From the IMG/VR virus record IMGVR_UViG_3300010403_000002, positions 1 to 64,000 of that record: 64,000 bases of DNA, one strand, 5' to 3'. This DNA is from a virus. Positions 1-58,790 of this stretch are shown piece after piece. Position numbers and translations under genes: made by a program. The notes under the pieces were generated by a model. It was not told the origin of the DNA. It ran no database searches and saw nothing but the letters and a program-made list of their open reading frames with translations. Within the stretch, counting starts at the first letter, position 1, and every line of letters begins with the position of its first letter.

Positions 1-3000
1 AGCCATCACGCTGCCCGCGACCACCGACAGTTCAAACCCCAACGCGCGGTATGTGGTCAGGTTCTACAGCACGAACAACACCCCGCTGGCTTTCTGGCAG
101 TGCCCATCGAGCGCAACTGAGCTACGCCTGCCACCTACGGTCAACAACTGGGCTGACCTCTGCACCTACAACGGCTCGGTGATCAGCGCGCCGAATGCTT
201 CCGCTTACACCAAAGACGAATTCAATCAGATGCATCCGTCCTGTGCGGAGGGGAAGTTGGTGGGCTACACGAGCGCTGGCCTGACGCAGACCTGCATTAC
301 CCCTGGTACAGGTCTGCAACTGACCGGCAACACGCTCAACGCCGCGGGCGGCGGCAGCGGCTCGGCTCCGGCAGGTTCGGGCACTGAGCTGCAAATCCGA
401 CAGGACGCGATTACACTGGGCGCGCTCCTCAATAGCGCGAGCAGTGGCAGCAGTTTGGCGCTGGGTGGTGCGGTCAACGCCTCCGCTTTGCTCACGCTCA
501 ACAGCACGACCAAGGGCTTCCTGCCGCCACGGATGACAACCACGCAAAGGGATGCGATTGCCAGTCCGACGCAGGGGCTGATCATCCACAACACGACGAC
601 TGAGCAGTTAAACGGCTATGTCAAGGCGACTGATGGCACGAGCCGCTGGCAGACCCTCATCGGCGACAACCTCACGCTGCAAAACCCGCATGTGGGCGCA
701 CCCGACACTGCCATCAGCTATGGCCTCGCCTGGAACTTCGTCACTGCGGGTACCAGCACAGCACCCAACTTCTCGACTGAGGTCGGGCAGTCGCTGGCCA
801 TGTATGTGACCAATGGTCAAAACGACATTGACCAGGCGGGCAAGAAAACCTATCAAGTGCAGAGTCTTACGATGAATGCGCGCGGGTCTGGCCAGCGTGT
901 TGCGCGCGGTCTGGCGCTCAACTGCTTTGGTGTAGGGGATTGCATCGGCGAGGACATGACTATCACGATGGCCGGGAGTCTGTCATCGAGCGGGGACGAG
1001 GGTTTCAAGTGGCAGCGATTCGCCATCCAAGAACTGAATGGACTGCAATACTCAACCGTCACTTCAATTCCGGCGCAGGCGACCATTAACACCACGCTGA
1101 GTGGCGCGGTCACGCGAAATATTAGCGAGCAGCCCGTCCCGGTCGGCTCATCAGCGGGCGTGGTGGCCGGCCAGTGGATGATTGTGGACGACGGCGCCCC
1201 AACCTCGACGGGCTACAAACGCTCGGAAGCGGTGAAGGTGACAGCGGTGCCGGATGGCACGCATATCACCGGCGTCTTTACGCATAACCACGACGCGGGC
1301 GCTGTAGTTGTTCCGGCGACCGTGCTGGTGGTGAGCAGCACGAACAATTGGGGGCCAGGGCGAACACTGGTCAATATGAGTGCGACCGCCTATACGACAG
1401 GCACCGCGCGCTGTAATCCCTGCGGCGATGGCGCGATGATTGTCGGTAGTGGCACATCGTGGGCTAGCAATATGCTCACCGGCGGGACGGCCAACAACCC
1501 CGGTGCAATCAGTTTTGAGGCTGACGACGTGACGACTTCGCCGTTCAGCCCAAGTAGCCGCCTGCGTGCGTGGTATCCGATACTACAAGTCAACAGCAGC
1601 GTTTCGCTCTCTAACTATCGGGCGAGTCAGGTCGGGCAGGGCGCTAACTACTACGGACTGGCCACCAGCCTGGGCAATTACACAATCCGCCCTGCTGCGC
1701 GACTGATGTCGTTCGACTCGATCAACGATTACTTTGCCCAAACTGTCGTCTTGTCTCCGAATAGTTTTACCTGGCAAGTGGGCGACATCGTAGAACTGGC
1801 ACACTCGACATCGTTCGATGGCGGGGGTGCAACCTGGGACTTCAAAATGTATTTGCCCGGGCAGACGTATCGCGATGGTTTGAACATTCGCAACTCAGGG
1901 ATGCGCGATTTTGCAACGGGGCTGACAATCGGCATCTATCCGGCGTCCACGCCGCAAGGATGGTGGACGACAGGGGCCGACATCAGCGGGCGCTCTACAG
2001 GGTTAAGGGTTGGCAGTGAAGGTAATGCCATCTCAATCAACTCGACCGACAACATTACCAATCCGGCTGGTAAGATTTCGTGGTCTATTGGCCCATCAAT
2101 TCAGTATTCAAGTACCAACGGGGGGCTGCTCATTGATCCATTTGCTGGCGGGGCGAACAGCTTAGCCTTTAAGCATCCGTCAGTCATCAGCGAAAGCCTA
2201 CCCCGCGCCGAGTTTACTGGCACCTGGCTCCTGCAAGGCGTTGGCTCAAACAATCCCTACTTACAGTTGAACGGTCAAAGCAGCCGTGTGTATCGTCTGC
2301 AATCCGATGGTGCAGCTACCAATGCACTCACTGCGCGAGTTTCCGTTGATGGTGGTTCGACCTGGGGCGATGTTTGGCGCTGGGGCAGTGAGGGTTTGAA
2401 TGTATTAAAGACGGTCACCGCTACCAACGGCTCGAACTGGCCCAGCTACAAGCAGATCTTTACCGCTTCCATTTATAACGGGTCAGCCGCCGTTGACAAA
2501 ACATGGTTCTTTAGGGTTGACCCACTCAGTAACTCAGCCAATGCTGACCAGAAATGGAGCGTGTGGCGCCCTACTTCCAATGCGAGCTTTCCCGTCGCCA
2601 TATTATCGGCTGAAACATCTGGCAAATTCACCTTCGGCATACAAGACCCGCTAGGTGGGGGCATAGAAGCCGTCAGAGCCGCTGTGTTTGACCCGACTGG
2701 CATTACGGCAGGGCAGACGCGCACCTACACGATGCCTGACGTTTCGGCCACGCTGGCCACGCGCACGGGCACATTTGTCACCGACAACTGCGTCAAGGTG
2801 GATGCCAATAAGAATTTCATTGACGCGGGCGTGACTTGTGGCGGTGGCGGTGGTGGTGGCGGCTCGGTGACGAGCATCACGGCGGGCGCGGGTCTCCAAT
2901 CCTCAACCACAAACCCCATCACCACCTCTGGCGCGCTCAGCATCGTCACTGGCGGGGTGACGAATGCGATGTTGGCCGGTTCGATCACTGACGACAAGCT

Positions 3001-3820
3001 GAACACGATCTCGACCCCTGGTAGGGTCAATGCCTCAGCGTTGGGTGGCACGATTGCGGCGGGGGTGTTTCCGACCCTGACCGGTGACGTGACGACGCCG
3101 GGCGCGTCGCTGGTGACCACCATCGCCAACGATGCGGTAACGTTCGCCAAGATGGCCAACCTGGCCACGAACCGGCTGATTGGGCGCTCGACTGCTGGCA
3201 CGGGCGACCCTGAAGCCATCACACCTGGCTCCACACTCTCGCTCGCTGCTGGCACGCTCGACGTAGCCAACCAGGGCATCACCTTTGCCAAGTTCCAGAA
3301 CATCGCAACCGCGCGGGTGCTGGGACGCTCGACGGCGGGCAGCGGCTCGGTCGAAGAGATCAACATCGGCACAGGTTTAGCGATTATTGCTGGCACGCTC
3401 TCCGCAACGGGGGGTGGGACGGCCATCACGGTCAAGGACGAAGGCTCGACGCTTGGCACTGCTGACACGATAGACCTGGTGGGCGCAGGCGTGACAGGCA
3501 CTTTCGCTGGCACGACTCTGACGATCACGGTTCCTGGCGCCGGTACGCCGACGTTTGGCTACGCGGCGGTGACGGGTGCGACCTACACAATCTCAGGAAG
3601 TGACAATTTCCTGAAGTGTGACACATCGTCAAACGCGATCACTATCAGCATCGGCGCGAGTGGTACGGCTGGCCGTCCGCTGAGGGTGTGGAAGTCTTCG
3701 ACGGACACAAACATTTGCACGATTTCGGATGGCACAAATTCTTATCAGATTTACGCACCTGGGGGCGTCTATGATTTTGTTGGCTCAGGTAGCGCATGGC
3801 TGGCTAGCCTTTCGAACTAG
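1..3820 (+). CDS. Tail-fibre-like repeat protein, 5' end cut by window edge
   Basis: The reading frame is open from base 2, so the true start lies outside the window and the internal GTG at 53 is probably not the start. About 1270 residues are visible. They are rich in Gly, Ser, Thr and Ala, with a segment of the LNSTTKGFLPPRMTTTQRD type that is common in phage fibres and adhesins. A nine-Gly linker lies near residue 950. Two copies of an A(V/I)TFAK-LIGRSTAGTG-type fibre repeat follow, at nt 3130-3270 and 3270-3390. The C-terminus has a compact beta-rich domain ending in FVGSGSAWLASLSN. It is likely a receptor-binding or fibre component, first of the plus-strand fibre cluster. Whether it has a signal peptide like its neighbours cannot be seen. 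Confidence 0.8.
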   Translation, partial: AITLPATTDSSNPNARYVVRFYSTNNTPLAFWQCPSSATELRLPPTVNNWADLCTYNGSVISAPNASAYTKDEFNQMHPSCAEGKLVGYTSAGLTQTCITPGTGLQLTGNTLNAAGGGSGSAPAGSGTELQIRQDAITLGALLNSASSGSSLALGGAVNASALLTLNSTTKGFLPPRMTTTQRDAIASPTQGLIIHNTTTEQLNGYVKATDGTSRWQTLIGDNLTLQNPHVGAPDTAISYGLAWNFVTAGTSTAPNFSTEVGQSLAMYVTNGQNDIDQAGKKTYQVQSLTMNARGSGQRVARGLALNCFGVGDCIGEDMTITMAGSLSSSGDEGFKWQRFAIQELNGLQYSTVTSIPAQATINTTLSGAVTRNISEQPVPVGSSAGVVAGQWMIVDDGAPTSTGYKRSEAVKVTAVPDGTHITGVFTHNHDAGAVVVPATVLVVSSTNNWGPGRTLVNMSATAYTTGTARCNPCGDGAMIVGSGTSWASNMLTGGTANNPGAISFEADDVTTSPFSPSSRLRAWYPILQVNSSVSLSNYRASQVGQGANYYGLATSLGNYTIRPAARLMSFDSINDYFAQTVVLSPNSFTWQVGDIVELAHSTSFDGGGATWDFKMYLPGQTYRDGLNIRNSGMRDFATGLTIGIYPASTPQGWWTTGADISGRSTGLRVGSEGNAISINSTDNITNPAGKISWSIGPSIQYSSTNGGLLIDPFAGGANSLAFKHPSVISESLPRAEFTGTWLLQGVGSNNPYLQLNGQSSRVYRLQSDGAATNALTARVSVDGGSTWGDVWRWGSEGLNVLKTVTATNGSNWPSYKQIFTASIYNGSAAVDKTWFFRVDPLSNSANADQKWSVWRPTSNASFPVAILSAETSGKFTFGIQDPLGGGIEAVRAAVFDPTGITAGQTRTYTMPDVSATLATRTGTFVTDNCVKVDANKNFIDAGVTCGGGGGGGGSVTSITAGAGLQSSTTNPITTSGALSIVTGGVTNAMLAGSITDDKLNTISTPGRVNASALGGTIAAGVFPTLTGDVTTPGASLVTTIANDAVTFAKMANLATNRLIGRSTAGTGDPEAITPGSTLSLAAGTLDVANQGITFAKFQNIATARVLGRSTAGSGSVEEINIGTGLAIIAGTLSATGGGTAITVKDEGSTLGTADTIDLVGAGVTGTFAGTTLTITVPGAGTPTFGYAAVTGATYTISGSDNFLKCDTSSNAITISIGASGTAGRPLRVWKSSTDTNICTISDGTNSYQIYAPGGVYDFVGSGSAWLASLSN

Positions 3821-4484: not shown

Positions 4485-4519
4485 GGCCTAATTCTACCAT
4501 CTACCAAGGAACTCAGATA

Positions 4520-5783: not shown

Positions 5784-7961
5784 ATGACATTCAAAGCACT
5801 TCTTTTCGTATTATTCTCAGTGCTGGGGCTAGCTCTGCCCGCATCCGCCCAATCACGCTTCTTGCCACGGTTGGCTGATGATCCCTTCCGCCCAGCGCAG
5901 CCTGTCGTCAAGTACGAGACAATCCGTGCCGCGCGTGTGACGCCAATAGCGGTGCAGAACTCGGTGCTGGGGCGCGTGTTTCACGTGACAGCGTTCGGTG
6001 CTAAGGGCGATGGTACGACCAACGACACGCCCGCTATTATGAAGGCAGTGGCTGCCGTGAATGCGAATGGTGGCAGCGGCATTGTTGAATTCCCATCAGG
6101 TACGTTCTTGTTGACGCCGGGCAATCCGGCGAGCGATTCAACAAACTTTATGGTGACAGGCTCGGCGGGCGTGATGCTCAACTTCACGGCTACCAACAGC
6201 ACCGTGCGCCTGTCACCCGCGACCACGATCAAAGTTGTAGCCAGTTACCTCTGCCAGAACGCGGCGGGGCAGTTCGCCTCCTGCACGCAGACCCTGTTTG
6301 GCACGTCTGCCTCACCTCTCGCCAACTTCCGCATCCAGGGCAACGGCGGCAAGATCACATGGGCGACCGACACGGAGAACGGCAGCGGCTCGTCTGCTGC
6401 GCGCGTGACGGTGTTAAACGGGGCGAATGAGTTTTACTTTTTGCGCGGCAGCTACCGAGATCCGGAATGGCGCGATTTCGAGACGCAGGACTTCCCGCGC
6501 AACATTGCTCTCGATGGCGGCTACACTGATGGTAGTGGCAACACGCTCACCGATGCGCGCGTTTCCAACTGCAAATTTACTAATTATGGAGGAGCAGGAC
6601 ACGACTTAAACTCCTACTGGCAGGGGGGCAATACAGTCACGGATTGCCTATTTGAATCGCATCGTCAATGGGCATCACACGAGGTGTATCTTGGCGCGGC
6701 CAAGATAGGCAATCGGTTCGTTCGGTGCAAATTCAAGCGGTCAAATGCTGATGCTTCGCTAACTAACAAGTATGCCCTTCAGAGCTACAGTGAGGGCGGT
6801 AGCGGGGATGTGGCAGGCTTGTTGGTGGAAGATTGCGACTTTGAGGGATGGATTGCCGCAGTGCTGGTGCAGCATGCAAATATCTCGGTCTCTGGCAAGG
6901 TCGTGCGTGATGTCCAGTTCGTCAGATGTAAATTCACAGGCGATGGTACGAACACGGCGATGGCAATGGTGGACCCGAACGATTGTAGTGTCGCTTATTG
7001 CACTTTCGATAACTACCTGACGGGTATCAGCGCGACGAACGGCACGGTGAGCGGGAGCAACTTCACGGTCATCCACAACAAGTTCAAGACCGTCAAAAAC
7101 TGGGTCATTACCGGCTCAGCAATCGCCGACTCCCACGTCACCGACAACTACGGCACTACGCCGATAGTGGGTGGTGTGCTCTTTAATTGCCAGGGCAAGC
7201 GTGGCCACATCAACCGCAACCACGCCATCAACGCAGGCGGTAGTGGGACGGTGGGATTTTACATTGCGGGGGACGGCACAGAGGCGGTCGGCAATGAAAT
7301 CTTCACCGACAACAGTGTCGCCTATACCGAACTCTTTGACTTCCTGTCCGGGGCGGGCTGGACGTTCGCTGGCAATGTGGTCAACTCGAACGCCTCCGGC
7401 TACTCGCTCTTCAGTGGCAGTGATTTCAAAATCATCGGCAACACGTTCTCGGAGCGCACCATCGTCGCCGCGGGAGCCACCGGTAACAATCTCGTCTCGG
7501 AGAACATTTTCAACGGCTCGCGCGGCAAGCCTGAGATGCGCGGCACGGCCAACTTCATCAACAACGTTGCGATCAATGGCCCTTACGTTGCGACGGGCAG
7601 CGACGCCGCTGGCTTCAAGAACGCGCGCGGCAACACTTGGAATTCCTCAAACCTAATTGATACGGTCATTGCCAACGCCACAGGCACCTACACGCCGCAC
7701 ACCAATCTGTATGCGGTGTTTGCGCTCACACTGACGGGCAACACGACGATTGCCGCCTCGGAGACCACGCCGACCGACGGGCGCGCGATTACATTCATTC
7801 TCACCGAAGACGGCGTTGGTGGGCGCACCATTACCTGGAATTCTCAATATATCGTCAGTTGCACGCTCTCCACCGGGGCAAATGTGCGCAACACCGTCTC
7901 GTTTATCTACAACGCCACGCTGGGCAAGTACGTGCAGACAGGCTGCACGACTGGCCTGTAA
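5784..7961 (+). CDS. Tailspike-like beta-helix protein with signal peptide
   Basis: The 725-residue product begins with a Sec signal peptide (MTFKALLFVLFSVLGLALPASAQ, cut after AQ). Residues about 65-110 carry the pectate_lyase_3 signature (VTAFGAKGDGTTNDTPAI). A long right-handed beta-helix with repeating N-x-F/C-x-F rungs follows to about residue 610. The C-terminal domain of about 80 residues has the ALTLTGNTTI...GGRTITWN pattern seen at the ends of many phage fibres. Family knowledge suggests a polysaccharide-binding or -degrading tailspike. The signal peptide is unexpected for a virion protein assembled in the cytoplasm, so a secreted depolymerase is the alternative. Confidence 0.85.
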   Translation: MTFKALLFVLFSVLGLALPASAQSRFLPRLADDPFRPAQPVVKYETIRAARVTPIAVQNSVLGRVFHVTAFGAKGDGTTNDTPAIMKAVAAVNANGGSGIVEFPSGTFLLTPGNPASDSTNFMVTGSAGVMLNFTATNSTVRLSPATTIKVVASYLCQNAAGQFASCTQTLFGTSASPLANFRIQGNGGKITWATDTENGSGSSAARVTVLNGANEFYFLRGSYRDPEWRDFETQDFPRNIALDGGYTDGSGNTLTDARVSNCKFTNYGGAGHDLNSYWQGGNTVTDCLFESHRQWASHEVYLGAAKIGNRFVRCKFKRSNADASLTNKYALQSYSEGGSGDVAGLLVEDCDFEGWIAAVLVQHANISVSGKVVRDVQFVRCKFTGDGTNTAMAMVDPNDCSVAYCTFDNYLTGISATNGTVSGSNFTVIHNKFKTVKNWVITGSAIADSHVTDNYGTTPIVGGVLFNCQGKRGHINRNHAINAGGSGTVGFYIAGDGTEAVGNEIFTDNSVAYTELFDFLSGAGWTFAGNVVNSNASGYSLFSGSDFKIIGNTFSERTIVAAGATGNNLVSENIFNGSRGKPEMRGTANFINNVAINGPYVATGSDAAGFKNARGNTWNSSNLIDTVIANATGTYTPHTNLYAVFALTLTGNTTIAASETTPTDGRAITFILTEDGVGGRTITWNSQYIVSCTLSTGANVRNTVSFIYNATLGKYVQTGCTTGL

Positions 7962-9595: not shown

Positions 9596-9687
9596 CGTGT
9601 AAGAGCGTAAAGAAATCCCAGAAACAGTGCCAACGCGAGCAGGAAGAGAAGAAGGTCAAGGGCTTGCTTGCGCTTTGGTGTCGCCAT
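9592..9687 (-). CDS. 31-residue single-span membrane peptide
   Basis: The ORF begins MATPKRKQALDLL, then continues with a Leu/Phe/Ala-rich span and ends ALTR. It has a basic N-terminus and one transmembrane helix. Its TGA overlaps the ATG of the GT-C-like gene (ATGA), a standard coupling arrangement. A GTAGGA site lies upstream. By analogy with phage serotype-conversion operons, where a small flippase-type membrane protein precedes the glycosyltransferase, it may assist that enzyme. It is much shorter than GtrA, so this is inference. Confidence 0.5.
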   Translation of the reverse strand: MATPKRKQALDLLLFLLALALFLGFLYALTR

Positions 9688-9733
9688 TCGCCGCACATCC
9701 TACGCCTCGTCAGTCAAAGCAGTCAATAAAGCT

Positions 9734-11746
9734 ATGCGTAAATCTATCATCATTCTGAGCCTGTTATGTGCGCTCTGCTTGAACGTCCACGCGCAAAAAG
9801 TCACCTACACGGCGGGCAAGATCGAGTATGTGAATCACGACCCGACGGGCGAAGCCTGCCAGCGTGACGCCGCGCGCAAGACCGTTGACGGAGTAGTTTA
9901 CACTTGCGCCAATGGTGTGTACGCGGCCATCGGCGGAGGCGGCGGAGGTTCGGGCACAGTCACCAACAGCGGCACGTTGACCTCTGGCAAGGCCATCATC
10001 GGCAATAGCGGTGTGCAGGTGAAGGCTAGCAAGCTGACCATCACCGACCCGGCAACGACGGCGACGCTCACCATTGCCGACAACAAGACCCTAACAGTCT
10101 CGAACACGCTCACCTTCACGGGCACCGATTCATCATCGGTAGCCTTTGGCGCGGGCGGCACGGTGCTGTACAGCGGCGGAGCACTCGGCACGCCGTCTTC
10201 CGGGACATTGACCAGCGCCACGGGCTTGCCCCTGACAACAGGCGTAACCGGTACGCTCCCGGTCGCCAATGGCGGGACAAATCTCACTGCCGCCGCTGAC
10301 GATAATGTAATGGTGGGCAACGGCACGACCTGGCAGACGAAGGCGCTCACTGACTGTCAAGATTCGAGCGGCAATCACCTTAATTACAACGCCACTACCA
10401 ACGCCTTCTCCTGCGGCACGAGCAGCAGCGGGAGCGGTCTGACGATCAATACGTCCACCATTACGGGCGGCACGACCACGCGCCTGCTCTTTGATAATGC
10501 GGGGACGGTGGGCGAGATCTCGGGGCTTACGTCAAACGGCTCGACCACGCTGGTGCAGACCAGTAACGCCGCCGCCGCCTTCGAGTCTGGCCCGAATGGC
10601 TCGACCAACCCGGTCTTCCGTCTCGTCAACAACACAGCGAGTGCGGCCACCGGCCTCTCTATTACCGGCAACGCTGCCGGCTCGGGTGTGACGCTGACGG
10701 CTCTGTCCTCTGGCTCCAATGACAGCATCAATATCGTCTCAAAGGGAACGGGGGGGGTGCGTGTCAACAGTGGCGTGCTTACCACCATTGTAAGCGAGGT
10801 TAATAACTTTTCCGTTGGCACGCCGAATGGTGCGCGCGTGGTGGTTGGCGATTTTAGTGCTGGCACGCCAGTGCTATGGGTGCAGAATGCTGCCGCTACC
10901 GTGACGGGCTATGTCGGCCACATTGACGGCTCGAACAACATAGTATTTGGGTCTTTTACCGCCCATCCGGTGGTCGTCAAGCAAAATAACGTGACGGCGC
11001 TGACGATTGACACCAGCGCCAACTTTGGCTTCGGGACGGCCACCTTCGGTACATCGGCGGCAAAGGTGCTAGCCCTTGCCAGTGGCACAGCGCCGACTTC
11101 GCAGCCCGCCGACATAGTGCAGGTGTGGTCTTCCGATTTCGCGGCTGGCGATGCCCGGCTGCGCGTCCTGAGTGAGTCCGGCGCACGCATCAGCCTTGGC
11201 AATAATGCGCTTGTCTTCGCCACGGGCACGACTGACGACACTGGTATCAAGCGCGTGGCGGCGACGGTCACAGGGTTCACTGATGGCGGAACCTCGAACC
11301 TGGGCTGGTATCAGTGGGCGGGTGAGTGCTTCCTGGCGGCAGATGCGACCAGCACGAGCGCCACGCTGGCCAATCTCTCCGGCTGCACGATCTCTGGCCT
11401 AGTCAGTGGGCGCAAGTACACCTTCGAGGCGAAGCTGTTCGCTAGCAACAGCGTAGCAGGCGAAGGCGTCAAGATTGACTTTAACGGCGGCTCGGCGACG
11501 AGCACCAACTTCATTGCTCAGTGTGAGGGCTTGGACTCCACATTGACCATCAACACTCAAGTGTCAGCACTGAACACGGCATGCTCGGCGGCCACCTTCA
11601 CGGGCAATGGGTTCATCCGCGTGACTGGCTCGTTTGAGCCGTCCGGGAGTGGCACCTTCATCCTCCGCTTTGCCGAGAACAGTGCTTCGAGCGGTACGTT
11701 GACAGTGAAGCGCGGCAGTTCGATTCGGATGTACGACAGTCCTTGA
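9734..11746 (+). CDS. Tail-fibre-like protein with signal peptide
   Basis: The 670-residue product starts at ATG 9734, where a signal peptide begins (MRKSIIILSLLCALCLNVHAQ). A short N-terminal domain with two Cys (to about residue 60) leads to a Gly6 linker. The fibre repeat follows: ALGTPSSGTLTSATGLPLTT, then GTLPVANGGTN, typical of long tail fibres. The rest is a Ser/Thr/Gly-rich beta-structured shaft. The C-terminus (about residues 520-670) resembles a carbohydrate-binding beta sandwich (FEAKLFASN, GSFEPSGSGTFILRFAENS). It is probably an adhesin or fibre. Confidence 0.8.
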   Translation: MRKSIIILSLLCALCLNVHAQKVTYTAGKIEYVNHDPTGEACQRDAARKTVDGVVYTCANGVYAAIGGGGGGSGTVTNSGTLTSGKAIIGNSGVQVKASKLTITDPATTATLTIADNKTLTVSNTLTFTGTDSSSVAFGAGGTVLYSGGALGTPSSGTLTSATGLPLTTGVTGTLPVANGGTNLTAAADDNVMVGNGTTWQTKALTDCQDSSGNHLNYNATTNAFSCGTSSSGSGLTINTSTITGGTTTRLLFDNAGTVGEISGLTSNGSTTLVQTSNAAAAFESGPNGSTNPVFRLVNNTASAATGLSITGNAAGSGVTLTALSSGSNDSINIVSKGTGGVRVNSGVLTTIVSEVNNFSVGTPNGARVVVGDFSAGTPVLWVQNAAATVTGYVGHIDGSNNIVFGSFTAHPVVVKQNNVTALTIDTSANFGFGTATFGTSAAKVLALASGTAPTSQPADIVQVWSSDFAAGDARLRVLSESGARISLGNNALVFATGTTDDTGIKRVAATVTGFTDGGTSNLGWYQWAGECFLAADATSTSATLANLSGCTISGLVSGRKYTFEAKLFASNSVAGEGVKIDFNGGSATSTNFIAQCEGLDSTLTINTQVSALNTACSAATFTGNGFIRVTGSFEPSGSGTFILRFAENSASSGTLTVKRGSSIRMYDSP

Positions 11747-29594: not shown

Positions 29595-29909
29595 TTAGTC
29601 TTGCTTTGGCGCGAACTTGCGCGGAAACGGTAAATCCCAATTGTCTACGACCCGTTGCCAGTCCAGATCGTCAGCCTCGGCATCGGCCTGTCCGACGCGG
29701 AGAACGCTAGCGAATTGCTCTTGAATGTGCGGCAGCAACATCGCCTCTTTGGGGAACATTCCAGCAGACGGCAAGCTTAAGAAAACGCTCGTTACCGCGC
29801 ACTCCAGGCACATGCCGTTGTCTGATTTGCGCACCGGTCGCGCTTGCTGGTTGCCGGTTTTTTCGGCTACGCATTGCTTGCCACAGCGCGGGCAGTTTTT
29901 AATGTTCAT
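29595..29909 (-). CDS. Zinc-ribbon protein
   Basis: The 104-residue product starts at MNIKNCPRCGKQC, preceded by AAGGAG. CPRC near the N-terminus and CLEC after a 20-residue basic segment complete a zinc ribbon. The C-terminus has LDWQRVVDNWDLPFP. The start overlaps the end of the methyltransferase gene by 11 nt. Confidence 0.6.
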   Translation of the reverse strand: MNIKNCPRCGKQCVAEKTGNQQARPVRKSDNGMCLECAVTSVFLSLPSAGMFPKEAMLLPHIQEQFASVLRVGQADAEADDLDWQRVVDNWDLPFPRKFAPKQD

Positions 29910-31173
29910 CGTTCTCCTTGTCGGCACCATCTTGTTCTGTTATTGCTTCGACCGCCGCTTTGATAAATTCCGCCGCTGTTTGCGGACAGATTGCATTGCC
30001 GTAGCCCCGCAAGAGTCCCACCCTGCCGGGAATCCCATTAGCCAAGCACTGAAGGCTGGATTTAACGCGCCGCGCTTTTCCGTCGAGACAATAGACGAGT
30101 TCGTAATCACTCCACGCGCCACCACATTCAAACTGACCGTTGCTTTTGTCCCGTCCGGTCGCCGCCCCGTCAACGTCGCACCCTTCGCCATTTGTGAGCC
30201 GTCTGCGTTGGCCGCCGTCGGGGTGGGCCATCCCCCTAAGATAATCCCCTGTACTTGATCTTCCAGTCTCGCCTGGCCATCGCACGCTCTCTCCGGATTC
30301 CCGTTGCCGCCGTTGTTCGCTACGCGGGGCGTCCCCCAACCAGCCAGCGTCACTTGCTGGCTTAGCGGAACACCCGTATCCCAAGGACGGGGCGGCTGAT
30401 TGCCTCTTGCCCCGTCCTGTGCTGTTGGGCTGCACCAGCCCGCCAAGACTGCCTGGTCTGCCAAGTTGATTTGATGCCCGCTCTCCATCCTGGCCAATGC
30501 TTTTGCCGGGTCCGCGTAATCCCCGCCGCGCTCGTTGCTGTCCGGTGAACGCCATCCAGTAAAGCCGCTGTCTGATGTGGGGCGCGCCGGGTTCACAATC
30601 AAATTGAGCGTAATTGCCGCTCTCGACCCACCATTCTCTAAAAACCTCTGCTGCAAGTTCTCCAAGCTCGCCGACGATAGCTTCAGCAATTCGCTCACCG
30701 ACTGTATCGGTTTTCGTGCCTGTGCCCGCAGCGCACAAATCTGCGGCCCCGACTCCATATCCCAACGTTTCCAAGTCAGCGCGTACTCTGGCGAGCCATC
30801 TACGTCCAAGCGGGCTTGCAGTTTGCTCTCCAAAGACGATTGCAGGCGCGCACTGAGCAATAAGGCTGCGGAAGTATGGCCAGAGGTGGCGCGGGTCTTC
30901 TTCGCCGCGCTGCTGGCCGGCTTGGCTGAAGGGTTGGCAGGGCGGTGAGCCTGTCCAGACGGAGCAGTTTGTGGGCCATCCGGCGAGTCGAAGAGCTTCT
31001 GACCATCCAGCAACGCCAGCAAAGAAGTGGCATTGAGTGAATCCCATAACGTCCACTGGTCTGACTTCTTGAATATCTCGCTCATCAACTTCACCATTAG
31101 GAATCAACTTCGCCTTTATCAATTCGCGCAGCCACGCGGCGGTTGGCTTGTCGTGTTCGTTGTAGTAATTCAT
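29899..31173 (-). CDS. DNA C5-cytosine methyltransferase (phage Dcm type)
   Basis: The product has 424 residues from ATG 31173 (429 from 31188). Motifs run in order: FFAGVAGWSEALRLAGW (AdoMet site), GSPPCQPFSQAG (catalytic Cys), VFGEQTASP (the ENV motif, replaced by GEQ as in phage enzymes), GAPHIRQRLYW (QRxRxY) and GNAICPQTAAEF (C-terminal motif). It methylates cytosine C5, probably protecting phage DNA from host restriction. No restriction partner is seen. A second long ORF in the +1 frame lies wholly inside it. Confidence 0.85.
   Translation of the reverse strand: MNYYNEHDKPTAAWLRELIKAKLIPNGEVDERDIQEVRPVDVMGFTQCHFFAGVAGWSEALRLAGWPTNCSVWTGSPPCQPFSQAGQQRGEEDPRHLWPYFRSLIAQCAPAIVFGEQTASPLGRRWLARVRADLETLGYGVGAADLCAAGTGTKTDTVGERIAEAIVGELGELAAEVFREWWVESGNYAQFDCEPGAPHIRQRLYWMAFTGQQRARRGLRGPGKSIGQDGERASNQLGRPGSLGGLVQPNSTGRGKRQSAAPSLGYGCSAKPASDAGWLGDAPRSEQRRQRESGESVRWPGETGRSSTGDYLRGMAHPDGGQRRRLTNGEGCDVDGAATGRDKSNGQFECGGAWSDYELVYCLDGKARRVKSSLQCLANGIPGRVGLLRGYGNAICPQTAAEFIKAAVEAITEQDGADKENDEH
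29940..31097 (-). CDS. Overlapping +1-frame ORF of Dcm locus (AGWxTP repeat protein)
   Basis: The 385-residue ORF lies inside the methyltransferase gene on the same strand. Its ATG overlaps the TAA of a small upstream ORF (TAATG), a normal coupling site. The sequence is not shadow-like: it has GSPEYALTWKRWDMESGP, repeated LAGW-(S/G)-(T/S)P blocks (AGWCSPTAQDG, AGWGTPRVANN, GGWPTPTAAN) and a C-terminal NPAFSAWLMGFPAGWDSC. I associate these features with annotated phage proteins near Dcm genes. The function is unknown. It could be a separate protein or the product of frameshifting. Confidence 0.5.
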   Translation of the reverse strand: MVKLMSEIFKKSDQWTLWDSLNATSLLALLDGQKLFDSPDGPQTAPSGQAHRPANPSAKPASSAAKKTRATSGHTSAALLLSARLQSSLESKLQARLDVDGSPEYALTWKRWDMESGPQICALRAQARKPIQSVSELLKLSSASLENLQQRFLENGGSRAAITLNLIVNPARPTSDSGFTGWRSPDSNERGGDYADPAKALARMESGHQINLADQAVLAGWCSPTAQDGARGNQPPRPWDTGVPLSQQVTLAGWGTPRVANNGGNGNPERACDGQARLEDQVQGIILGGWPTPTAANADGSQMAKGATLTGRRPDGTKATVSLNVVARGVITNSSIVSTEKRGALNPAFSAWLMGFPAGWDSCGATAMQSVRKQRRNLSKRRSKQ

Positions 31174-31228
31174 CTTGTTGCTCTTCATCCCGGCGCACGT
31201 CTTCGTGCGCCAGCCAGTCGGCGCTCAT
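31097..31228 (-). CDS. 43-residue charged coupling ORF
   Basis: The ORF starts MSADWLAHEDVRRDEEQQDE and is strongly charged. Its ATG overlaps the stop of the gene at 31225 (ATGA) and its TAA overlaps the ATG of the ORF at 29940-31097 (TAATG). It may be a real micro-protein or simply carry ribosomes to the internal frame. Confidence 0.4.
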   Translation of the reverse strand: MSADWLAHEDVRRDEEQQDELLQRTRQANRRVAARIDKGEVDS

Positions 31229-31509
31229 TCTGTTTTCGCTCCAACCAAGCTGGCGGGATCGGCGCAGAGGTTGAGCCAGTATTCCTTATCTGCGAGCGGC
31301 ATCACCAGGTCGGCCTTGATGGCGTCAGCAAAATCAATCTGGAAATCAACCGGCAACATTGCCTTGCGAATCACAGCCACGGCATTGTTAGCGAATTCCT
31401 CCAACTCGCCGCCTTTCAGAGCGCCAGCCTGGGCGAGCAGGTCACAGGCACGCTCAATGCCGTCGTTGAAGATCGCGTTGTAGAGTGGGTTGTGCAGTTT
31501 TTCGATCAT
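31225..31509 (-). CDS. Early hypothetical protein
   Basis: The 94-residue, mainly helical acidic product (GIERACDLLAQAGALKGGEL) has a strong AAAGGAGGA site before the ATG. No family is recognised. It heads a run of overlapping genes leading to the methyltransferase. Confidence 0.55.
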   Translation of the reverse strand: MIEKLHNPLYNAIFNDGIERACDLLAQAGALKGGELEEFANNAVAVIRKAMLPVDFQIDFADAIKADLVMPLADKEYWLNLCADPASLVGAKTE

Positions 31510-31519
31510 GTGTCCTCCT

Positions 31520-32368
31520 TTATGCGTTGCGGTCTGCCGGTTTCACGGAGGGCATCTGGCAAACGCGCAAATCCAGCGGCCATTCGCTCCAATCGCCGCC
31601 CTTGCGGTCTTCGTACCGATACTTGAACACCAGCTCTGTCTTGAAAGAGGAGGCAGGCGGGATCATTTCAATCGGATTTGCGCCAAGCTGCTTCACAAAG
31701 CAAGCCACGTCCTGCGCCTTACACTGCGCGACGATTGAACGCGCCCAGCGCAGATCGAATGGACGCGCACCGTGGCCAGATTCCCCGCCAACGATTATTT
31801 GACTTAGCCAGCTAGCAGCTAGCTCCAAATCAATTTCGCCTAGTAAAGGTTCGCACGATACGAACCAGACAACGGGCAGATTCCACAATCCCGGCTGGTT
31901 CAGAATCGCCCGCGTCCGCTTGTCAAACCATTCTTGATTTTCTGCTGTGAAGCCGAGCCAGACATTCGGATAAGTTGCGCGGCTGAAGTCGGCGGGCAGG
32001 CAAGATAAGATTCTATCGGCGCGCTTTGTGAGCAATTGCCAGTCAAGCCAGGGAGTCGCCTTTATCAGCGGCCAGAGCTTCGCCCGTTCTTGCTCAATCG
32101 TCGGGTGATCCTCGAACACGTCCGCCATACTTGAACAAAACACCCGACGGCGAACACCCTCACGCTCAGCCTTCGCGTTCCATTTCAAAGGCTCGCGCCA
32201 GTGCTTTTCGCCGAACGTGCGCCGCTCAGCTTTCGGCCCCCAGCCAACGCCGTAACGCTTTGCCCACGTCTCTGCATAGCAATGCTCGCAAGCGGGAGAC
32301 ATGCGAGTACACCCCCAGGCAATGTTAAAAGTGTGATCCGTCCACTGGATTGCTGTTTTCTCTCCCAT
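31520..32368 (-). CDS. DUF5131 (phage Gp37/Gp68 family) protein
   Basis: The 282-residue product has the N-terminal signature IQWTDHTFNIAWGCTRMSP with ACEHCYAE. Cys20, Cys27 and Cys30 (C-x6-C-x2-C) suggest an iron-sulfur cluster. VVWFVSCEPLLGEIDL and IIVGGESGHGARPFD are further family blocks. It is a common phage and plasmid protein with a presumed radical-SAM-like fold and no established reaction. It sits between two methyltransferase genes. Confidence 0.8.
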   Translation of the reverse strand: MGEKTAIQWTDHTFNIAWGCTRMSPACEHCYAETWAKRYGVGWGPKAERRTFGEKHWREPLKWNAKAEREGVRRRVFCSSMADVFEDHPTIEQERAKLWPLIKATPWLDWQLLTKRADRILSCLPADFSRATYPNVWLGFTAENQEWFDKRTRAILNQPGLWNLPVVWFVSCEPLLGEIDLELAASWLSQIIVGGESGHGARPFDLRWARSIVAQCKAQDVACFVKQLGANPIEMIPPASSFKTELVFKYRYEDRKGGDWSEWPLDLRVCQMPSVKPADRNA

Positions 32369-32465: not shown

Positions 32466-33551
32466 CTAAAAGCCAAACCCGATGTTGGTCTGGCAGCGTT
32501 GCTCGATCAGCTTGATGTACTCAGGATTGAGTTCGATCAGAATTGCGCGACGACCATTTTCAATAGCGACCTTGCCGGTTGTACCGCTGCCCGCGAACGG
32601 GTCAATCACTGTGCCGTCTTTTGGACATCCAGCAAGAATACAAGGGCGTATCAAGTCGGGCGGGAAGGTGGCGAAGTGCGCACCTTTGTAACCTTTCGTC
32701 GTGACGGTCCAGACGCTTTTCTTATTCGCCATTACCCCGCCACGCGGCGAACCGTCAGCGTTGAAATATCCGCTATGACCCTGTGACGCCGGAGCGCCGC
32801 CCGCCATCTTTGGCGTCCATTCTTTGCCTGACTGTAGGCGCGTATCCGGGCATTGTTTGTTGCCGCCGAACTTCACCGCCTTCATTGCGCCATTCGTCTT
32901 ACCCGGCACACGATCACTGCCCTTCTGATTCTCTACGTCCTGAATTAAGCGCGCCGCACTGGTGTCTTTGATTGGCTCTTTAATTGATTCCTGGTCGAAG
33001 TAGTACCGCGGCGATTTGCTTAGCAAGAAGATTTGTTCGTGCGATTTTGTGCATCGGTCGGTAACTGATTCGGGCATCGGGTTCGGCTTGTGCCAGATGA
33101 TTTCCTGCCGCAAATACCAGCCATCAGTACGCAGTGCGAAGGCAACCATCCAAGGGATTCCGATGAGGTCTTTTGCCTTCAGGCCTCGAGTGCCACTGCG
33201 GTCAGCCATTGCTGGCTTAAATGTCCCGTAACGATCTTTGCGGCGCTTGTCCAGCGCCTTCGCACTTGTACTGCCCGCTGCAACGTAATTACCCCAACTG
33301 CCCGAGTAGCTATCTCCAAGGTTCACCCAGAGTGTCCCGTCTGTGCGCAGAACGCGCCACACTTCTCGGAATACCTCAACCAATCTAGCAACATAAAGCT
33401 CCGGCGTTTCTTCCATACCAATCTGCTCTTTTCTTCCGTAATCCCGTAAACCAAAGTACGGCGGACTTGTGACGCAGCACTGCGCACTGCCAGCTTCAAG
33501 CTGTGACAGTTTTTCGAGCGCGTCGCCTTGAAGAATAGTGAGCAGGTTCAT
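32466..33551 (-). CDS. Beta-class DNA amino-methyltransferase
   Basis: The 361-residue product starts at ATG 33551, overlapping the upstream stop (ATGA), with TGGAGC as ribosome-binding site; the 30-residue upstream extension is rejected. Motif IV TSPPYFGLRDYG (residues 28-39) comes before motif I VIDPFAGSGTTGKVA near the C-terminus, the beta-class order. TSPPY fits either N4-cytosine or N6-adenine methylation. The region between holds the target-recognition part. An orphan phage methylase is likely, protecting against restriction or marking DNA. Confidence 0.85.
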   Translation of the reverse strand: MNLLTILQGDALEKLSQLEAGSAQCCVTSPPYFGLRDYGRKEQIGMEETPELYVARLVEVFREVWRVLRTDGTLWVNLGDSYSGSWGNYVAAGSTSAKALDKRRKDRYGTFKPAMADRSGTRGLKAKDLIGIPWMVAFALRTDGWYLRQEIIWHKPNPMPESVTDRCTKSHEQIFLLSKSPRYYFDQESIKEPIKDTSAARLIQDVENQKGSDRVPGKTNGAMKAVKFGGNKQCPDTRLQSGKEWTPKMAGGAPASQGHSGYFNADGSPRGGVMANKKSVWTVTTKGYKGAHFATFPPDLIRPCILAGCPKDGTVIDPFAGSGTTGKVAIENGRRAILIELNPEYIKLIEQRCQTNIGFGF

Positions 33552-34090
33552 TGCTCCAGCGCCCCCTCCCAAGCTTCGTTTGTGACTCCGAGATACCACA
33601 GCAATACCTCGCGCGCTTTTTCCCAGCCGTTGCACACGCACACGCAGTAGCCTTGCTCCGATAGCCTAGTAATCCAGTTCCGCTGTGATAGGCTCACATC
33701 TGAAGCAGTGGCGCTTTGGCGCTTCAGCTCGATGTACAGGCCGTGAAACCCGCGCGCGGCGACCGGCAAGAAAATATCCAACACTCCGGCTTTAACGCCT
33801 TCAGCGCGCAGCTTGCCTGCTACAGCCTTGCGCCGATGCCCCCCGTTTGGGATAGCGTAAGCAAGATCGAGCGCGGGCAAGGTTTGCTTTTGTCCTTCCA
33901 TCCAGTTGAAAAGCATTACCTGCTCTTCGTGCTCGGTTGGGCATTTGCGCCGCTGCTCACTCATCTCTTTAGCCACGCGATCAATCCCCGCACGCCCAAC
34001 GGCGGCAGGAGACAGACCGGGCACCTTACGCCCAAACTTCGCTTGGTGCGCGGCGGCAAGCTCTTCTGTGATGCCGTAACTTCTGCTCAT
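33548..34090 (-). CDS. VRR-NUC domain nuclease
   Basis: The 180-residue product has the compact VRR-NUC core: AIPNGGHRRKAVAGKLRAEG, then GVLDIFLPVAARGFHGLYIELKR, then SQRNWITRLSEQGY. The catalytic Asp and the E-L-K triad are present, although the usual Pro before the Asp is Leu. A helical N-terminus of about 45 residues precedes it. Stand-alone phage VRR-NUC proteins are thought to resolve branched DNA. It is coupled to the methyltransferase by ATGA. Confidence 0.8.
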   Translation of the reverse strand: MSRSYGITEELAAAHQAKFGRKVPGLSPAAVGRAGIDRVAKEMSEQRRKCPTEHEEQVMLFNWMEGQKQTLPALDLAYAIPNGGHRRKAVAGKLRAEGVKAGVLDIFLPVAARGFHGLYIELKRQSATASDVSLSQRNWITRLSEQGYCVCVCNGWEKAREVLLWYLGVTNEAWEGALEQ

Positions 34091-56270: not shown

Positions 56271-58790
56271 ATGCAGACTGCTGCTCAACCTAACCTCGCC
56301 CCCGCGCGTGAAATAGCCGCGGCCAGAATGGAGCGGCAATTCAAGCCGCGCCGTCTGGTAGATGTCTGCAAGGAGTGGGTGCAGGAACTGCGCGCCGAGG
56401 GGGAAACCCCGGAGTGGCGAGATCGGCGACTGTATAGTCAGCGGAACGAGCTGTACTATCGCGGCTATCAACGACTGCGGCAGGCTGACCTGACCAATGC
56501 GTGGCGCATCCTTGAGCCGAAGCCGATTCATTATACATATAATGAATTTCAGTTCTGGTGCAACGTCACGAGTGCTAAATTTGTGGCGAGCCGGGTGGAC
56601 TTCAGGGTCAATGGCATTCCTGAACAGGATGTTGAAGACAAGGAAATGGCGGCGTCGAAGCTGCGCAATATCGGGCGCTATTACGACGGTAGATTCTGGA
56701 ACCGCACCAAGACGCTGGACGCCAGCAAGCAGCTTCAATTCACGGGCTACCTGATCGGGTACGTGCCGTATAGTGAACGCGCGGGCGTGAAGGCTTACAA
56801 GCCAATCACGGAGCGGGTTTCGATCAAACTGGGCAAGGATGTGTATCGCTGCGCGGATTGCGGCGACGTAGGGGAGATTGATGGAAGTGGAACTTTACAA
56901 CAAGAAGGTGCATGGGCTGCCGATAGTATGTCTGCCGGCGGAACCGGAGGGCTATCTACTCTGTCAGGATCAGGAAATGGGACAGGAGATTACAGTTCTC
57001 AACCTGCCTTCACTGAGACTGCTAGCACGTGTGCCCACTGCGGATCATCCAACCTCGCCGTCACCGAAATCCCCTCAGAAGAATTCGAGGTTGAAACCGG
57101 GCAGCAAGAGTACGACGCGGGCGACGTAGAGCCGCGCCTGTTGTCCATTTATGACGTGACGTGGTTTGCGGCACTGGGGCCGGAGCGCAGTTCGCTGCTG
57201 CTGTGGGAAGAAGACCACGACGAGGCAGATCTGCAAGCTGAGTATCCCGGCATCAAGTTGCCGGGTGGTGAGGCGCAGAACGACGGCATTCAAAAGAAAG
57301 AGCAGTTGCGTCGCTTTGAGCGTAATCCGCAAAACAAGCGCAAGACGCTGACTCGTCTCTGGGTTGAGCCGCGCCGCTATCACGACCTAGAAGAAAAAGA
57401 AGAAGTTCAGACGGTCGCAGGGATTACGTTCCCGGCTGGGACGCGCTGGTCACAAATGTTCCCGCACGGCATGCACGTGATCATGGTCGGCGACCTGATC
57501 GTAGATATTTACGCGGCGGTCAAGAATGACGACATCGTGGTAATGGATTATCACGATGTGCCGAATGGTGGGATGGCACAGGGTGTTGATGCGATGTGCG
57601 AGCCGCAGCGGGGCATGAATACCACGATGTCGCTGCTCAACGTGTGGATGCGTCATAACGCTGCACCGCGCCAGCGCTTCAATCCCGAGTTGATTGATGC
57701 GGCTGACATCAGCGGTGATCCGAGCCGCGCCATCCCGATTAACGCTGCGAACCTGGGCTTGCGCGATGGCGCGACCATTGAAAACGCCATTTACGAGCAG
57801 CCAGGCGCGCAGATTCCGGCTGGCGTGTTTGGGCTAAAAGATGAACTGCGTGGTTCGATCCAGTTTGCCGCCAATGCTACGGAGTTTGCTGAGGGTATGC
57901 CGGGTTATGATAGTCCGACCTTTGGTGCGGCCAAACTCGGCACGAATTTATCTCAGTCTATTTCAGGCGTCGTGCTTGGCAAGTTCGCCGACTTCCGTGT
58001 CGGGATGGTCAAGCGCACGCTCAAGAAGCTCAGGGCCTATTGCTGGGATGAACGGACGGTCGAATTTGCCGGGAAGTACGGAGCAGCGGAACTACTGACG
58101 CTTTCCGGACAGGAGATTCCTGACAGTTTCGAGATTGAAGCGGTGCCAAATTCCTGGCTGCCGCGCACGGCTGAACAGCGTCAGCAAAATCTACAAGGCC
58201 TATTGCTGGCAACGGGCGGCTGGGCTGGTTTGCTAGCAATGCCGCCTGAGATGGTGGCAGAGTTGTGCGAAACCTTTGACGTGCAACTCGACATCAATTT
58301 GATGCCGATAGCGATTCGCACGGTGCGGCTGCGGCTTAAGCAGATGGAAGCCGCGCTGCCTGCTTTGTTGCTGGTCAATCAGCAATTGAACGCGATGGGC
58401 GCGCCGCCGGTGCAGGCGGAGGTTGATCCCATGACTGGGCAGCCAGGGCTAGCACCACTCAGTGTCGGTCAGCAGTTAGTCGAAGTCTTGCAGCCGCCGT
58501 TCAATCCGCGCGAGAAAGGCTGCGGTGAGGCGGCGGAGTATATTTCGACCTGGTTTACGACTGACGAGGGGCTGAATGCAAAGCTCGATCTAATCGAGGC
58601 AATGGGCGCATTGCAAGATTTGTACATCCAGGCCGCAGAGTTGCAGGCGGTGGTGCGGGCGGGTGTTGAGATGGCAGGACAGCCTATGCCAATGCTGGAT
58701 GCGCAGAATGCGGATGGTGCGCCGCCAAGTCAGAAGCAGAAACAGCCAGCGAAACCGCAGATGGGGGCGTTGGCGCAAACCGGAGGTTGA
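56271..58790 (+). CDS. Portal protein with zinc-ribbon insertion
   Basis: The 839-residue product is long enough for a podovirus-type portal. The core is recognisable from WRILEPKPIHYTYNEFQFWC, RSIQFAANATEFAEGMPGYD and later helices (VGMVKRTLKKLRAYCWDERT); its place between terminase and scaffold supports the call. Near residues 193-260 a CADCG pair and a CAHCG pair bracket a Gly/Ser-rich loop, an inserted zinc ribbon that portals normally lack. It forms the ring through which DNA enters the prohead. Confidence 0.8.
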   Translation: MQTAAQPNLAPAREIAAARMERQFKPRRLVDVCKEWVQELRAEGETPEWRDRRLYSQRNELYYRGYQRLRQADLTNAWRILEPKPIHYTYNEFQFWCNVTSAKFVASRVDFRVNGIPEQDVEDKEMAASKLRNIGRYYDGRFWNRTKTLDASKQLQFTGYLIGYVPYSERAGVKAYKPITERVSIKLGKDVYRCADCGDVGEIDGSGTLQQEGAWAADSMSAGGTGGLSTLSGSGNGTGDYSSQPAFTETASTCAHCGSSNLAVTEIPSEEFEVETGQQEYDAGDVEPRLLSIYDVTWFAALGPERSSLLLWEEDHDEADLQAEYPGIKLPGGEAQNDGIQKKEQLRRFERNPQNKRKTLTRLWVEPRRYHDLEEKEEVQTVAGITFPAGTRWSQMFPHGMHVIMVGDLIVDIYAAVKNDDIVVMDYHDVPNGGMAQGVDAMCEPQRGMNTTMSLLNVWMRHNAAPRQRFNPELIDAADISGDPSRAIPINAANLGLRDGATIENAIYEQPGAQIPAGVFGLKDELRGSIQFAANATEFAEGMPGYDSPTFGAAKLGTNLSQSISGVVLGKFADFRVGMVKRTLKKLRAYCWDERTVEFAGKYGAAELLTLSGQEIPDSFEIEAVPNSWLPRTAEQRQQNLQGLLLATGGWAGLLAMPPEMVAELCETFDVQLDINLMPIAIRTVRLRLKQMEAALPALLLVNQQLNAMGAPPVQAEVDPMTGQPGLAPLSVGQQLVEVLQPPFNPREKGCGEAAEYISTWFTTDEGLNAKLDLIEAMGALQDLYIQAAELQAVVRAGVEMAGQPMPMLDAQNADGAPPSQKQKQPAKPQMGALAQTGG

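Follow-up and report, generated by a model that had tools for sequence, protein, structure and literature searches.

Does a C5-cytosine DNA methyltransferase gene that carries a second long open reading frame (ORF) in its +1 frame encode one protein or two, and what would the second protein do? The question arises from a locus in the window, by which we mean the whole 64,000-nucleotide stretch of viral DNA analysed here, derived from a virus record of 76 kb. Both ORFs lie on the minus strand, together with a leader ORF and an upstream ORF:

31225..31509, minus strand: upstream ORF, 94 aa, no family match of note; its stop overlaps the leader start (ATGA)
31097..31228, minus strand: leader ORF, 43 codons, beginning at the ATGA of the upstream gene
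29899..31188, minus strand: outer ORF (alpha), C5-cytosine DNA methyltransferase, 429 aa, ATG start; PF00145, phrog_363 and M.HhaI fold
29940..31097, minus strand: inner ORF (beta), 385 aa, +1 frame, ATG start; phrog_1008; conserved and selected in relatives

The inner ORF is nested 100% within the outer ORF, giving a double-coded length of 1158 nt. The chain of overlapping stops and starts described in the original prediction (ATGA at 31228, then TAATG) is present in the window, and at TAATG (31099-31095) the leader TAA and the inner ATG (31097) have one base in common. The AGW-x-TP blocks, GSPEYALTW and MGFPAGWDSC that it ascribed to the inner ORF were all found in the translation. The leader may be coupled to the inner start, for which an in-frame ATG at 31085 is as plausible as that at 31097. 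The start and ribosome-binding site were weakly conserved, with ATG at the VDERS site in 55 of 119 loci and GAT mildly enriched.

The inner frame is open and under purifying selection

Viral loci (n = 80) were fetched by the outer protein alone, and a homologous inner ORF was present in all 80, in the +1 frame every time. Frequent +1 stops in homologues, which would speak against the original prediction, were not found; the frame was open in these 80 loci, and the arrangement was intact in 78 of 80 bacterial loci fetched with the inner profile. Eight full-length canonical C5-methyltransferases of other lineages had 10-34 stops in the +1 frame. The +1 frame of the window gene was open for 387 codons; synonymous shuffles (n = 20) averaged 197, and all fell short of 387. 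The longest open stretch in the +1 frame, averaged over 148 distinct loci, was 323 codons, whereas 162 were expected from within-gene synonymous codon shuffles; the same shuffling gave no excess in the +2 frame (74 vs 80 codons expected).

The inner profile was scored on 134 loci outside its training set, with 20 synonymous shuffles of each that left the outer protein identical. The real +1 frame scored a median of 283 bits compared to 95 on the shuffles, the real inner protein outscored all 20 shuffles at 133 of the 134 loci, and the +2 frame scored about -2 bits.

Selection was assessed with an OLGenie-like count over 33 independent pairs with outer identity of at least 70%. The inner dNN/dNS was 0.72 (0.67-0.78), and the +2 control frame gave 1.25; the inner dSN/dSS was 0.49 (0.41-0.61), with 0.69 in the control. 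We implemented these tests ourselves and made no correction for multiple hits or transition bias, and the contrast with the control frame therefore outweighs the absolute values. Third-position differences exceeded first-position differences 2.5-fold in the single-coding part and 1.5-fold in the overlap. By region, the core was kept chiefly in the outer frame (inner dNN/dNS 0.78 over motifs I-VIII), the middle was loose in both frames, and the block holding motif IX (inner) and motif X (outer) was tight in both. This block had the strongest double constraint, with an inner dNN/dNS of 0.39 (0.30-0.52) and a synonymous-outer/nonsynonymous-inner rate of 0.15, compared to 0.37-0.39 elsewhere.

These results indicated that the central claim of the original prediction, two overlapping coding frames, is supported both by the open +1 frames and by the purifying selection it had proposed to look for. 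At the level of the sequence, dual coding rather than chance is confirmed for the inner ORF. The same prediction had called more than 1.1 kb of dual coding exceptional; the length holds, but in this family such an overlap is normal, its median in viral loci being about 970 nt.

The outer protein contains the catalytic motifs but lacks motif IX

C5-methyltransferases require motifs I-VIII, a target-recognition domain, and motifs IX and X. The outer protein matched PF00145 (E 8e-10, 39 bits; gathering cut-off 22) and phrog_363 (2e-66), and fell below the cut-off of TIGR00675, the single-chain Dcm-type model (20.4 bits vs 100.65). Its AlphaFold2 model had a confident M.HhaI-like core (Z 15.3, VIA). 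The motifs, in the order II-III-I-IV-VI-VIII...X, include the following:

31126..31167, minus strand: alpha motif II-like YYNEHDKPTAAWLR, N-terminal, before motif I (alignments A2/A4)
31003..31032, minus strand: alpha motif I (CHFFAGVAGW), between motifs III and IV
30925..30951, minus strand: alpha motif IV with the catalytic PCQ (GSPPCQPFS), aligned to M.HhaI; P83, C84 and S88 invariant in A4
30823..30831, minus strand: alpha motif VI, GEQ replacing ENV; G120, E121 and Q122 invariant in A4
30556..30585, minus strand: alpha motif VIII (APHIRQRLYW; alignments A2/A4)
30130..30507, minus strand: alpha residues 228-353, predicted disordered linker facing the beta WxTP blocks (AlphaFold2 pLDDT about 35)
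29980..30024, minus strand: alpha motif X (RVGLLRGYGNAICPQ), beginning within the codons of beta motif IX

In a census of 226 loci, the complete outer ORFs contained motifs I, IV and VIII, with motif X in most, and the motif IX pattern was found in none of the 226.

Outer residues 1-88 (31188-30925, minus strand) show an apparent rearrangement of the catalytic fold, in which motifs II (YYNEHDKPTAAW) and III precede motif I, followed by IV; the fold alignment to M.HhaI begins at M.HhaI residue 34. Placement of motif I after II/III is common to 124 relatives, and the canonical order is kept in at least 48 others that have this overlap. An insertion of about 44 codons at about 30720-30580 (minus strand) is specific to the window and missing from the 13 aligned relatives. 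It leaves both frames free of stops (residues about 157-201 of the outer protein and about 128-171 of the inner), and AlphaFold2 predicted a helix there in both proteins.

The inner protein contains a motif IX-like segment

The inner protein matched phrog_1008 (5e-21) and had no match in Pfam, NCBIfam or PDB sequences; a search of solved-structure sequences with the protein and its profile likewise gave no meaningful match. Three features stand out:

30720..30797, minus strand: beta conserved segment, GSPEYALTWKRWDMESGPQICALRAS-like, predicted beta-hairpin; G101, S102, W109, K110, L123 and A125 near-invariant in A3
30207..30557, minus strand: beta W-x-[TS]-P blocks, four in the window, putative target-recognition region (block count in relatives)
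30018..30065, minus strand: beta motif IX-like LNPAFSAWLMGFPAGW; L345, P347, W352, L353 and W360 invariant in A3

The W-x-[TS]-P blocks numbered 631 across 218 relatives, with a median spacing of 36 residues; by a simple pattern, an inner protein has from none to six W-x-TP blocks, usually two to five. They are followed by LNPxxxxWLMGFPxxW, which is nearly invariant, and the motif IX pattern was present in the inner ORF of nearly all 226 loci. The inner LNPAFSAWLMGFPAGW is similar to LHPRECARVMGYPDSY of M.HhaI, whose sequence was verified at residues 274-327. When the inner protein was aligned with eight canonical C5-methyltransferases, the best hhalign register was at motif IX (E 0.37 over 13 columns, non-significant alone). 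Modelled alone with AlphaFold2, it reached low confidence (pLDDT 61.6) and matched no C5-methyltransferase small domain; a missing match in such a model says nothing either way. The original prediction had left the role of this protein open; we infer that it supplies the motif IX part of the methyltransferase.

Motifs have moved between the frames in some relatives

At two loci, L200 and L212, the outer ORF ends just past motif VIII, and motif X is read in the inner frame, downstream of motif IX. These were the only loci of the 226 with motif X in the inner ORF, and at neither is a motif lost or duplicated. Mycobacterium phage Wachhund has one chain of 473 aa with motifs I-VIII, LPTP blocks, MMGWPAGW and GNGVVPQ, to which the outer profile (1e-28) and the inner profile (1e-7) both match. 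These three natural rearrangements are stronger support for a motif IX role of the inner protein than the profile match. In a tree from a short alignment, the rearranged forms fall among the overlapping ones with weak support.

The +1 frame of the Wachhund gene (L297, 1381-2802) still has the opening portion of an inner-family protein (E 2e-9). Neither phage considered as a single-frame control could serve: Mycobacterium phage Wachhund is an in-frame fusion, and for Paenibacillus, phage Newport overlaps too.

The overlap is widespread. By tblastn, 135 phage records contained the inner protein and 321 the outer, and the two coincided in position in epsilon15, K1H, EBPR podovirus 2, PhiXhv-18, RcIroh, Cy-LDV1 and phiKX1; one viral collection gave at least 600 pattern matches. 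Divergent WPTP...VEWLMGFPxGW ORFs were considered as standalone genes and rejected, since in this group (pattern VEWLMGxPxGW) an outer-type methyltransferase frame overlapped at 78 of 80 loci and the other two were cut at contig ends; at one locus, L188, the outer-type frame was broken up. Patterns aimed at the inner protein fetched about 240 loci, and none of these had a standalone inner gene. By record title, the bacterial loci belong to Proteobacteria, Verrucomicrobia, Planctomycetes, Acidobacteria and others, and the six E. coli relatives examined are prophage loci, among phage genes. In Consotaella salsifontis (L324, 3868-5082), a stop near 4498 interrupts the outer frame and leaves the inner one whole.

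Probable subunits of a split methyltransferase

The overlapping ORFs are very probably the genes for both subunits of a single split cytosine-5 DNA methyltransferase. Alpha would form the large catalytic domain, with AdoMet binding, the catalytic PCQ cysteine and the closing helix of motif X, and its codons opposite the beta blocks would specify a mere disordered linker, read through to motif X. Beta would supply motif IX (LNPxxxxWLMGFPxxW), which alpha lacks, and its W-x-TP blocks may form a small target-recognition domain. The alpha-beta heterodimer may then methylate phage DNA at a specific cytosine.

Accessory proteins are common among the products of overprinted genes (reviewed in PMC8227390), and the inner protein has no significant match to solved or Pfam domains, as might be expected of an independent protein, such as a regulator or an anti-restriction factor, that overprints the methyltransferase gene and has no part in methylation. 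We consider this improbable, as motif IX is absent from the outer and present in the inner protein across 226 loci, the two are fused in frame in Wachhund, motif X has moved into the inner ORF of L200 and L212, and a free-standing inner gene did not occur among the roughly 240 inner-targeted loci. An untranslated by-product of the base composition and codon use of the methyltransferase gene could draw on the fact that composition alone leaves the +1 frame somewhat open (the 162 codons expected above), but it would explain neither the median of 283 bits against 95 in shuffles, nor an inner dNN/dNS below 1 where the +2 control exceeds 1, nor the fewer third-position changes in the overlap, and can safely be set aside.

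The rearranged loci also bear on a third possibility, that the inner frame has no start of its own and is reached by ribosomal frameshifting from alpha past motif VIII, yielding an alpha-beta fusion. In Wachhund, one frame contains the core as well as the LPTP blocks, IX and X, and a +1 shift after motif VIII in L200 or L212 would give a complete I-X chain. At most loci, however, motif X is in the alpha frame and would be lost by a single shift; moreover, the inner frame is under selection over the I-VIII core (dNN/dNS 0.78), which a late shift leaves unused, and M.EcoHK31I consists of two polypeptides (PMC3404938). Frameshifting is thus very unlikely, and two separately encoded subunits remain the preferred reading.

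A broader proposal is offered tentatively and is open to considerable doubt: the locus may belong to an ancient, phage-wide class of C5-methyltransferases that is two-frame by rule, with a motif IX and W-x-TP module opposite the catalytic motifs, modular recognition and, in its main clade, motif I after II/III. If so, recognition would change by gain or loss of modules open in both frames.

Relation to known methyltransferases

The small polypeptide of M.EcoHK31I was reportedly found by Lee, Kam and Shaw in 1995 to be encoded within the large gene, in another frame. The inner gene of the window is likewise nested in the outer, in the +1 frame. M.EcoHK31I recognises YGGCCR, and its large subunit contains motifs I-VIII and X, with motif IX alone in the small subunit (PMC3404938). 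Compared by described motif layout, I-VIII/X and IX are divided between two polypeptides in the window too. The systems differ in that the predicted target-recognition domain of M.EcoHK31I is located in its large subunit (PMC3404938), whereas alpha has predicted disorder and this domain would lie in beta. They also differ in that M.EcoHK31I is part of a restriction-modification system, and no restriction enzyme is annotated beside the gene in the window or in the six E. coli prophage relatives. In M.AquI the split falls between VIII and IX (PMC3404938). L200 and L212 are divided likewise, their second subunit containing IX and X; the window differs in having motif X in the first subunit and two genes that overlap almost completely. 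The window locus appears to match a known kind, two-polypeptide C5-methyltransferases like M.EcoHK31I, a placement made because of the motif division described for that enzyme (PMC3404938).

Both phrog_363 (outer) and phrog_1008 (inner) are labelled DNA methyltransferase; PHROGs keeps them as separate families although they are two frames of one locus. In Escherichia phages K1G and K1H both frames are annotated separately, as a C-specific methylase and an Mte8-like protein (by name only). Mte8 is presumably the Swiss-Prot name of M.EcoHK31I. In RefSeq E. coli prophages alpha alone is named, though beta is open, and in Cy-LDV1 and phiKX1 beta alone is named. Because such records name one frame only, a methyltransferase cloned from them would lack the other and could be expected to appear inactive.

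In the literature searched, we found no description of the overlap in phages, its breadth, the double selection or the relocation of motif X. Dual coding over long stretches of one strand is seldom encountered, and still fewer cases are well supported and have a function assigned to each product; here, double coding over about 1 kb is seen repeatedly, in hundreds of phage and prophage loci and in several bacterial phyla. The locus offers a natural test of codon sharing by two proteins that must cooperate.

Neighbouring genes

Three further genes lie close to the locus:

29595..29930, minus strand: small CxxC protein with a weak resemblance to the restriction alleviation protein Lar (PF14354 E 0.0097, under cut-off)
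31520..32368, minus strand: DUF5131 protein (PF07505 7e-59)
32466..33641, minus strand: N6/N4 DNA methyltransferase (PF01555 2e-48)

Methylation may blunt host restriction, and because of the adjacent N6/N4 methyltransferase and the weak Lar-like ORF, the purpose of the split enzyme is probably to shield phage DNA from it.

Elsewhere in the window, the large ORFs at 53-3820, 5784-7961, 9668-11746 and 56271-58790 had no PHROGs match at E 0.001. The DUF5131 protein, which adjoins two DNA methyltransferase genes, also matches the PADLOC candidate models PDC-M41B and PDC-M30B.
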